Shown here in pieces: positions 46,478 through 57,712 of a DNA stretch of 64,000 nt (within the stretch, counting starts at the first letter, position 1; each line of letters starts with the position of its first letter). Below the pieces are notes generated by a model. The model searched no databases. It was given only the letters and a program-made list of their open reading frames with translations, and was not told where the DNA came from. This DNA comes from an uncultured bacterium. GTDB lineage: Bacteria > Elusimicrobiota > Elusimicrobia > Elusimicrobiales > Elusimicrobiaceae. A program made the position numbers and the translations under genes. Location: NCBI GenBank assembly GCA_949294095.1, contig CASFFZ010000002.1:1-64000 (forward strand), in the 5' to 3' direction.

Positions 46478-46556
46478 ATATGGGAATAAGGCCTTTTTAT
46501 TCTATAAAATTACAAGTGGAAACGGAGCGGCCCTGTTCAGGCAAGGGGCAAATTTA

Positions 46557-46584: not shown

Positions 46585-47055
46585 ATGAGAAAAGGGTTTA
46601 CGCTGATTGAATTATTAATTGTGATGGTAGTGGTAGGGGTATTGGTTACGGTAGCTCTGCCCAAGTATTTTGCTTCCATGGAGCGCGGCCGGGCCTTGGA
46701 GGGCATCAGCAATTTGCGCGCCGCCAGCGATTTTGCAAATGCCACCTATGTGATGCGGGATAATACCTATATTCGCAATGCCATTGTGGATACTTCTAAA
46801 AATATGTTGAGCGGCAATTTGACAAAATCGTCTTATTTTACGCCGCCGCAATGGTTTTCGGGAACGTCGGACACGGTGGTGCTGGTAAGCAGCCGGGTGG
46901 ATGGCGGGTATGAATTGTTTGCCGTCAATCAAGGAGGGGAGTTGAAATATATTGCCTGTTCGGGCGATGAAGAACTTTGCAAAAACGCCGGGATGGAAGA
47001 AGCCTCTTTTACGGACAGTTATTCAAACAGCAATTTGATTTTGGACTTCCGTTAA
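46585..47055 (+). CDS. Type IV pilin-like protein, divergent form
   Basis: A 156-residue prepilin-like protein. MRKGFTLIELLIVMVVVGVL gives a three-residue leader (MRKG, cleavage before Phe) with Glu5, then the hydrophobic helix. The C-terminal domain has one cysteine pair (ACSGDEELC). The leader is much shorter than in the two other pilins in this window and the globular part is unrelated, so it probably serves a different filament or a minor-pilin role. TTTTAGGAGGGCCT precedes ATG. Monocistronic, with its own terminator. Confidence 0.88.
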   Translation: MRKGFTLIELLIVMVVVGVLVTVALPKYFASMERGRALEGISNLRAASDFANATYVMRDNTYIRNAIVDTSKNMLSGNLTKSSYFTPPQWFSGTSDTVVLVSSRVDGGYELFAVNQGGELKYIACSGDEELCKNAGMEEASFTDSYSNSNLILDFR

Positions 47056-51522: not shown

Positions 51523-51596
51523 GTCCCGTTCGTCTAGCGGCCCAGGACGCCGCCCTCTCAAGGCGGAGATCACGAGTTCGAATCTCGTACGGGACG
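51523..51596 (+). tRNA. tRNA-Glu (anticodon CTC)
   Basis: A 74-base cloverleaf. Acceptor GTCCCGT / ACGGGAC; anticodon stem CCGCC/GGCGG with loop CTCTCAA, giving CTC; T arm ACGAG-TTCGAAT-CTCGT; discriminator G. No encoded CCA; seven T residues follow at once. Confidence 0.96.
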
Positions 51597-51607
51597 TTTT
51601 TTTATGT

Positions 51608-51634
51608 TACCCCGCTTTTTGGCGGGGTTTTTTG
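51608..51634 (+). terminator. Terminator of tRNA-Glu
   Basis: ACCCCGC / GCGGGGT stem, TTTTTG loop, T-run. Confidence 0.9.
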
Positions 51635-51658
51635 TTGACGCAATGGACGGAGAAAGGC

Positions 51659-51692
51659 TTGACTCGTTTTTTTTTTTGATACATTGGGACAT
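51659..51692 (+). promoter_or_regulatory. Pilin promoter with an 11-T tract
   Basis: TTGACTCG (51659-51666), T11 (51667-51677), then GATACATTGGGACAT and the ATG at 51693. A -10-like TACATT (51680-51685) is 15 bases from TTGACT. The same arrangement with T8 precedes the pilin gene at 57209. No Shine-Dalgarno. Tract length would set the -35/-10 spacing. Confidence 0.6.
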
Positions 51693-52190
51693 ATGCATAA
51701 ACAGGTTCAAAAAAACATATTTTTATCCGGAACGCGCGGATTTACGCTGATAGAGCTGCTGGTGGTTGTTTTAATTATCGGCATTCTGGCGGCGGTTGCT
51801 TTTCCCAAATACGAGCAGGCGGTTTGGAAAAGCCGTTACGTGCAATTGATGTCGGTGGTGGATCAACTTTCCGAGGCGCAGGAAGTATATTATCTGGCCA
51901 ACGGCGCCTACGATGCTACCGGCGAAAATTTGGATATTGAAAAACCGAAGAAAATGGATTTTTCTTTGTCTTTGGGATTTAATGGCTCGGTGTATGTGGC
52001 ACAAGTAAAAAAGAAACCTCTTTATTACGTTCGTTATCAAAAAGTAAATGGGGGCTGGAGCGGTGTGCGCCAATGCCGCGTAATGGGGGATGATGAAATC
52101 GCTCACAAAGTATGCAGCTCTTTAACCGGCGTGCCCATCCATATGAACGCCGATGACGCCAGCGGATATACATATTACAGATTTCCATAA
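51693..52190 (+). CDS. Type IV pilin-like protein with T-tract promoter
   Basis: A 165-residue prepilin. The leader MHKQVQKNIFLSGTRG is long and basic, cleaved before FTLIELLVVVLIIGILAAVA (Glu5 present). After the helix come KYEQAVWKSRYVQLMSVV and a globular domain with a C-terminal disulfide-like pair (QCRVMG, VCSSL). The N-terminal half, the KSRY block and YYLANGAYDATGENLDI match the pilin at 57209 (YQMANGTYATDAEQLDM), so these two are recent relatives. No assembly genes are nearby. Confidence 0.92.
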   Translation: MHKQVQKNIFLSGTRGFTLIELLVVVLIIGILAAVAFPKYEQAVWKSRYVQLMSVVDQLSEAQEVYYLANGAYDATGENLDIEKPKKMDFSLSLGFNGSVYVAQVKKKPLYYVRYQKVNGGWSGVRQCRVMGDDEIAHKVCSSLTGVPIHMNADDASGYTYYRFP

Positions 52191-52210: not shown

Positions 52211-52233
52211 CCCCGCCTCAGGCGGGGTTTTTT
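52211..52233 (+). terminator. Terminator of the second pilin gene
   Basis: CCCCGCC / GGCGGGG stem with a TCA loop and six T. Confidence 0.93.
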
Positions 52234-57178: not shown

Positions 57179-57208
57179 TTGACTCGTTTTTTTTGATAAA
57201 TTTTCCAT
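57179..57208 (+). promoter_or_regulatory. Pilin promoter with an 8-T tract
   Basis: TTGACTCG (57179-57186), T8 (57187-57194), GATAAATTTTCCAT and the ATG at 57209. The -10-like TAAATT (57197-57202) lies 12 bases from TTGACT, three fewer than in its counterpart at 51659, exactly the difference in T-tract length. It ends six bases before the ATG and there is no Shine-Dalgarno. Confidence 0.6.
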
Positions 57209-57712
57209 ATGCAAGAAATTTATCAAAAACCCTTCCTCGGCGGGAAAAACGCTGGATTTACGCTCATAGAGCTGTTAGTGGTGGTATTAATTATCGGCAT
57301 ATTGGCCGCGGTGGCCTTGCCACAGTACCTATATGCAGTCAATAAAAGCCGCTATCAGGAAGCGGTTTTGTTGGTGGAGCGAATTTATCAGGCGCAAAAA
57401 CTGTATCAAATGGCGAACGGAACATATGCGACCGACGCCGAACAGTTGGATATGGATATTCCCCCTCAGTTTACGGTATCCGGCACTATTTTAACTTCTC
57501 CGGAGTTTTCGTGCAGCATCAGTCATGTGTATTGTGTGTTTAGAAAGGGAAATTTACAAAGCGTTGCTTATAATCATGCACTCAGCCACGGGCGCAGGGA
57601 ATGCAATGTGTTTAACTTTTCCATTCAATCGGCCCACGCTTTTTGTAAAAAATACAGTGGGAAAAACGAATATACTACTTATGGCGCATGGAGCGTTTAT
57701 ACACTGGATTGA
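57209..57712 (+). CDS. Type IV pilin-like protein with T-tract promoter, second copy
   Basis: A 167-residue prepilin. Leader MQEIYQKPFLGGKNAG, cleaved before FTLIELLVVVLIIGILAAVA. The mature stalk shares the NKSRYQEAVLLVERI block with the pilin at 51693. The globular part has four cysteines (FSCSISHVYCVF, RECNVF, AFCKKYS), more than the other two, so its disulfide pattern differs. It follows pcrA by 70 bases under its own promoter and is followed by a strong terminator. Confidence 0.92.
   Translation: MQEIYQKPFLGGKNAGFTLIELLVVVLIIGILAAVALPQYLYAVNKSRYQEAVLLVERIYQAQKLYQMANGTYATDAEQLDMDIPPQFTVSGTILTSPEFSCSISHVYCVFRKGNLQSVAYNHALSHGRRECNVFNFSIQSAHAFCKKYSGKNEYTTYGAWSVYTLD

Follow-up and report, generated by a model that had tools for sequence, protein, structure and literature searches.

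Positions 1 to 64,000 of contig CASFFZ010000002.1 (assembly GCA_949294095.1), from an uncultured gut bacterium of the family Elusimicrobiaceae, make up the stretch of DNA analysed here (the window). In it, a run of 11 T residues (T11) lies between the -35 and -10 hexamers of a type IV pilin gene, and we found that this tract is one copy of a promoter shared by a dispersed pilin family: the poly-T promoter design is used almost only for scattered pilin genes in this bacterium and its relatives. This is a larger point than that of the first-pass annotation, which had described a candidate switch at the one promoter. We lean, though only slightly, towards regarding the tract as the slippage-tuned spacer of a sigma-70-type promoter serving a pilin family dispersed in one Elusimicrobiota genus.

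As read in the sequence, the window promoter consists of a -35-like hexamer TTGACT (51659–51664), CG (51665–51666), the T11 tract (51667–51677), GA (51678–51679) and a -10-like hexamer TACATT (51680–51685), all on the + strand, with a spacer of 15 base pairs (bp) against a class norm of 16. The coordinates agree with the sequence, and the first-pass annotation was right in placing T11 between these hexamers, at a spacing of 15, before a type IV pilin gene; its optimum of 13 T and a spacing of 17 has to be replaced by the class norm of T12 and a spacer of 16. The TTGACT hexamer is also present in 20 of the 33 T-tract pilin promoters of the same genome in a fixed-offset alignment. The -10 hexamer is preceded by TGA (the last T of the tract plus GA) and so reads as an extended -10 too. 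GGGACAT separates it from the ATG of the pilin gene (51693–52190, +), which encodes a protein of 165 amino acids (aa) with the prepilin cleavage/N-methylation motif GFTLIELLVV (PF07963, 31.2 bits; cut-off 21.2). Since this ATG starts at the 8th nucleotide (nt) past the -10, the mRNA may be leaderless. The promoter was absent from a consensus promoter scan because that scan requires a spacer of 16–18 bp.

The genome to which the window belongs (G000; 1.48 Mb, 13 contigs) contains 26 distinct T-runs of 10 to 13, the window T11 among them (T10, 4; T11, 7; T12, 12; T13, 3), and 64 prepilin motifs (PF07963), which are spread over 11 of the 13 contigs and not clustered at one locus in the manner of the mycoplasma vlp genes (see below). 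Over the whole genome, all 26 T-runs of at least 10 precede a same-strand PF07963 motif by 44–92 nt, whereas only 0.37% of strand positions fall inside the 170 nt before such a motif. A long T-run could by itself arise by chance: in dinucleotide-shuffled versions of the window T9 matches number 17.6 on average over both strands, more than the 3 overlapping ones observed, all inside the T11 tract. It is the placement of the T-runs, unlike their length, that is beyond chance. Non-T bases are few in the tracts (6 of 374 in the 33 own promoters and 2 of 483 in 41 sister promoters). The T-tract is missing from about half of the G000 pilins, and those carry other leaders. Pilus assembly machinery is represented by four PF00437 secretion ATPase matches. 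Four divergent pilin-like genes without T-tracts (contig C9, 28851–33477) adjoin a T2SSE-type ATPase (581-aa frame) and are probably the core pilus operon.

Pilin genes are numerous throughout the genus, with 22 to at least 150 PF07963 matches per genome in 25 genomes (the highest figure, for G011, comes from scoring 150 of 238 candidates) against 3–11 in 16 sister-family genomes. An exact T11 run occurs 169 times in G011, 50 times in G004 and 19 times in G015, but at most once in each of those 16. We distinguished three promoter designs: (a) TTGACTCG-Tn-GA-TAAATT, found in 7 of the 25 genomes searched, in which the T12 form gives a 16-bp spacer; (b) TTGACATCG-T11-GC-TACATT, with a 16-bp spacer, found in G011 and, with variants, in G015; and (c) TTGACAAATC-A11-C-GATAAT, again with a 16-bp spacer, in which the poly-A on the coding strand is the mirror of the poly-T. 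There are 61 copies of design (c) in G011, 5 in G015 and none in the other 23 genomes. With a pattern slightly looser than that used for the 61-copy count, and the motif being sought within the first 70 residues, design (c) precedes pilins in 20 of 22 cases in 398 kb of G011 and in 4 of 4 in 395 kb of G015.

To describe the spacer, 111 T-spacer pilin promoters from eight genomes were parsed, 105 with pure and 6 with interrupted tracts. The sister loci of G007, G008, G012, G013 and G014 (40 regions) were chosen by design (a), the G015 stretches partly for known T11 sites; two G007 loci and two G001 loci were left out, and two own promoters with only T7 were excluded by the parser. The pure tracts gave a spacer of 16 in 73 promoters, 15 in 14, 14 in 7, 17 in 6, 13 in 4 and 12 in 1, with none above 17, whereas the interrupted tracts gave 17 in 3, 18 in 1 and 19 in 2 (Mann-Whitney p 2e-6, the paralogues not being independent samples). 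That pure tracts peak at 16 and interrupted ones fall at 17–19 indicates that spacer length is under selection. Flank and tract can be traded against each other, TTGTAT-TGTG-T10-GA and TTGACA-TC-T12-GC each totalling 16. Design (a) has T12 in 35 of 45 promoters outside the own genome compared with 8 of 18 within it, and the T-runs of at least 10 in G011 comprise 3 T10, 49 T11 and 6 T12 (398 kb, whole 20-kb stretches). As a class, the T-tract promoter follows the sigma-70 pattern, with 16 bp in 73 of 105 pure tracts, although the copy in the window has only 15. Most of the spacer is taken up by a pure A/T tract of 11–12 bp. With their hexamers, extended -10 and fixed spacing, these are probably promoters of the housekeeping type. 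The ATG of 52 of 74 promoters falls exactly 14 nt past the tract and on the 7th nt past the -10, which suggests leaderless mRNA.

Tract length does change. Each length from T8 to T13 occurs in the own genome, whose 28 pure-tract spacers measure 12 (1), 13 (1), 14 (2), 15 (8), 16 (13) and 17 (3); a spacer other than 16 is found in 15 of these 28 but in only 4 of 26 from G007, G008, G013 and G014 together (Fisher p 0.0045). Close paralogues in the own genome have T12 (C1:83419), T11 (C1:412486), T10 (C6:371) and an interrupted tract (C1:186728), and in G012 4 of 12 pure tracts are only 9–10 long. At locus C12:134087, G000 has T12 and G012 T10, although their flanks are identical for 170 nt on the 5' side of the tract and for 181 nt on the 3' side; G021 has T12 there and is identical to G000 over 310 nt 3' of the tract. 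This genome and G012 look loose in tract length, G011 and G014 tight.

In the mechanism that we slightly favour, RNA polymerase would work best on these hexamers when a homopolymer spacer of 16 bp, which in this genome means T12, lies between them. A-tract DNA has a helical repeat near 10.0 bp per turn, and a 16-bp A-tract spacer would have about the twist of a normal 17-bp spacer. Replication slippage adding or removing one T would change the distance and angle from the -35 to the -10 by a single base step. Each such change would lower transcription, heritably and reversibly, so that each of about 30 pilin genes would drift independently around a preferred ON length. T12 would be the strong form, and the window T11, with its spacer of 15, a mildly reduced allele one step weaker. 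The promoter would then act as a tuner with rare off states rather than as a fast ON/OFF switch. The phase-variable switch of the first-pass annotation survives in part: the homopolymer does separate the two promoter hexamers of a surface pilin gene, spacing is important, since three designs reach 16 bp, and length varies (T8–T13 here, and T12 in one species but T10 in another at a promoter that is otherwise the same). Free switching fits less well, most species having a narrow range of lengths. According to a 2025 review (PMC11868660), homopolymers whose indels fall below the usual rate and whose reversibility is not shown cannot be termed phase variation; by this rule the poly-T pilin promoters remain a candidate for it.

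Several points weigh against slippage tuning. In most species lengths are tightly held: T12 accounts for 9 of 9 tracts in G014, 8 of 9 in G007, 4 of 5 in G008 and 5 of 7 in G013, and the 61 design (c) tracts of G011 comprise 58 A11, 2 A10 and 1 A12. Frequent slippage is hard to square with the lengths in G011 and G014, and part of what the first-pass annotation had said would refute a switch, a constant tract length, is thereby found. One-T differences could still be an assembly choice or stutter, and paralogous promoters are not independent samples. A mutator background as cause was rejected, as mutS is present in all 25 genomes and mutL in all 16 genomes compared, both being intact in the own genome. 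Tracts of known systems also spread far more widely: C10–15 for fim2 and C13–18 for fim3 of Bordetella pertussis (PMC1891110) and T5–T22 for sabA of Helicobacter pylori (PMC4081817).

A serious rival, which we think possible but on balance rather doubtful, is that the tract is a structural spacer only: a stiff, straight and slightly overwound A-tract would set the angle between the -35 and -10 or tune melting, its length would be under stabilising selection, and changes would be mostly harmful errors with no programme behind them. The pure peak at 16, with all 6 interrupted spacers at 17–19, is what would be expected from A-tract twist; an A-run is tolerated on either strand, and length variance in G011 and G014 is very low. 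Such a spacer is harder to reconcile with the own genome, where only 13 of 28 pure tracts are at 16 compared with 22 of 26 in G007, G008, G013 and G014, or with the short tracts of G012. Moreover, an AT-rich mixed spacer could give similar geometry without the risk of slippage, and a purely structural role leaves the use for pilins alone unexplained.

It is improbable that the tract serves mainly as a binding site at which a nucleoid protein or silencer reads the A/T tract and co-regulates the pilins, with spacing secondary. The confinement of the tract to one gene family would fit such a site, as would one promoter subclass in which an inverted repeat with partly covarying arms overlaps the -10 and start codon, but the orientation flips between T11 and A11 while the spacer stays at 16, which points to spacing. 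Less probable still is descent only, in which recent copying of pilin cassettes left a tract without present function: promoters and 5' gene segments are indeed near-identical among paralogues, even between species, yet spacer length has stayed constant where the 5' leaders and the sequence upstream of the -35 have drifted apart, and three distinct designs converge on 16.

Other roles and artefacts were also considered. Contig ends of the own assembly share exact 141-bp overlaps, as in short-read graph assembly, and runs of 7–8 nt occur inside intact reading frames of the genome; both make long-read homopolymer error an unlikely source of the length differences. A coding or translational slippage site was rejected, since a convincing -10 follows the tract in all classes. 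A terminator tail was likewise rejected: many copies lack a preceding hairpin, any hairpin that does precede the tract stands off by about 8 nt, and A11 tracts are on the wrong strand for one.

The fimbriae of Bordetella are of the chaperone-usher type and not type IV pilins. In B. pertussis, the length of a C-stretch in the promoters of fim2, fim3 and fimX alters transcript level (PMC1891110). The likeness to the present tracts is a homopolymer inside the promoter of a fimbrial subunit; the Bordetella tract differs in being poly-C, in having a fim box with it, in belonging to only a few genes and in varying widely among strains. In Mycoplasma hyorhinis, each vlp gene has a homopolymeric A tract in its promoter, and indels in it switch transcription (PMC10502178), so that, as here, several genes of one surface family each have a promoter tract of their own. 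Seven vlp genes are listed in one array in strain HUB-1 (PMC4198240); the T-tract pilins here number about 30 and are scattered, and G011 has 61 A-tract and many T-tract loci. The vlp products are lipoproteins, whereas the present genes encode pilins, hold their tract length tightly and are only candidates for switching. The poly-T tract near the promoter of the H. pylori adhesin gene sabA gives a graded, rheostat-like output, and A/T tracts occur at further genes (PMC4081817). It resembles the present tracts as poly-T near a surface-gene promoter, but it moves UP-like elements relative to the core promoter, whereas here the tract is within the -35/-10 spacer and near-fixed in length. The pilE/pilS system of Neisseria shares a large pilin repertoire in which the 5' part is constant and the 3' part variable. 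In Neisseria, gene conversion from silent copies alters a single expressed locus, whereas here about half of the copies have a T-tract promoter of their own and recombination is only hinted at. No report of these Elusimicrobiota pilin promoters was found among the titles, opening lines of abstracts and text passages searched in an open-licence library, including passages of PMC8809381; a prior mention of pilin expansion in the Elusimicrobium minutum genome paper is possible.

Surface genes with a homopolymer tract in the promoter are known from a few pathogens, in sets of a few genes; the present case differs in scale, in genome-wide dispersal, in its mirror poly-T and poly-A forms, in the association with type IV pilins and in the near-fixed length. 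The design accompanies a large share of the pilins in a commensal genus that has been little studied and raises the question of the purpose of so many pilins. Tentatively, and with somewhat more doubt than confidence, we suggest a whole-genome pilin lottery in gut Elusimicrobiota, with about 30 to well over 100 scattered pilins per genome, each having a slippable poly-T or poly-A spacer. If this is true, each lineage would have a different, heritable and adjustable pilin mix, and selection would hold most pilins near the ON length. The genomes also offer many natural replicates of one promoter differing mainly in spacer length, which allow a direct test of spacer length and A/T-tract structure against promoter strength.

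Two further pilin genes lie in the window, and PF07963 scores are above the cut-off for all three. The second gene (57209–57712, +; 167 aa, reading frame intact) has its own T-tract promoter, with a -35-like TTGACT (57179–57184), a T8 tract (57187–57194) and a -10-like TAAATT (57197–57202), all on the + strand. Its spacer of only 12 makes it a candidate shortened form, weak or off, and under slippage tuning it would be a strongly reduced allele, weak or silent. The third gene (46585–47055, +), with a Shine-Dalgarno sequence and without a T-tract, provides a contrast; its start at 46585 was chosen in the analysis, the mechanical open reading frame starting at 46480.

The pilin gene behind T11 is followed by a terminator-like hairpin and T-run (52211–52227, +). 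Upstream of its promoter lies a tRNA-Glu (CTC) gene (51523–51596, +), a transcription unit of its own with a terminator-like hairpin (51609–51628, +). The tRNA-Glu locus was compared in 15 genus relatives, 13 of which gave downstream sequence (L139–L142, L144–L150, L152 and L153; in L146 and L152 at most 10 nt before the contig end), L143 and L151 having no match to the tRNA pattern. Among the 13, a pilin gene occurs within 1400 nt only in L140, 589 nt on and with another promoter, so that the window pilin is not conserved at this locus. A contig scan found a single pilin 66% identical to it, with T12 (CALUXB010000005.1, L208); it adjoins the same tRNA-Glu, but in the opposite orientation. Judged from these sequences, the tRNA-Glu site (window 51523–52190) is one of pilin gain or loss.

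Exchange within pilin genes is hinted at by loci L273 (G000) and L274 (G012), in which the promoter and first ~180 nt past the tract are identical, after which the 3' part of the G012 gene has about 57–82% identity; L275 (G021) stays 92–100% identical to L273 throughout this part. The abrupt 3' divergence in L274 looks like exchange of a variable pilin part.

The sequence past the tract differs between subclasses. In one (window 57195–57224; L209–L248), an inverted repeat GATAAATTTTG-N-TATG-N-CAAAATTTATC is centred on the start codon. Its arms match in 405 of 480 cells over 40 distinct sequences, compared with 386 +/- 3 in shuffles, none of 2000 of which reached 405, and a few sequences have changes on both arms. 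In another subclass (G000 C4:17339, C1:426057, C1:118097 and C10:107421; sister L246 and L248), the 5' leader opens, close to where transcription is expected to begin, with a stem CGTTGATTT...AAATCAACG or with a different, GC-rich one, and the stem ends just 5' of the Shine-Dalgarno sequence. Several pilins of G011 (L172, L181, L184 and others) have long N-terminal leaders of recurring peptides, e.g. CHSKLDLESHRFLKRQQGE...LNQVQGDV, ahead of the prepilin motif; they look like the product of an in-frame insertion of a dispersed repeat between this motif and the start. A dispersed repeat is found at the own contig ends C4, C6, C7, C9 and C10 (76–141 bp overlaps), and a GC-rich hairpin lies directly 5' of several pilin -35 boxes, in promoters with GGGGCGGCTCGCCCC before the -35. 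The contig-end repeat and this hairpin are possible cassette borders.
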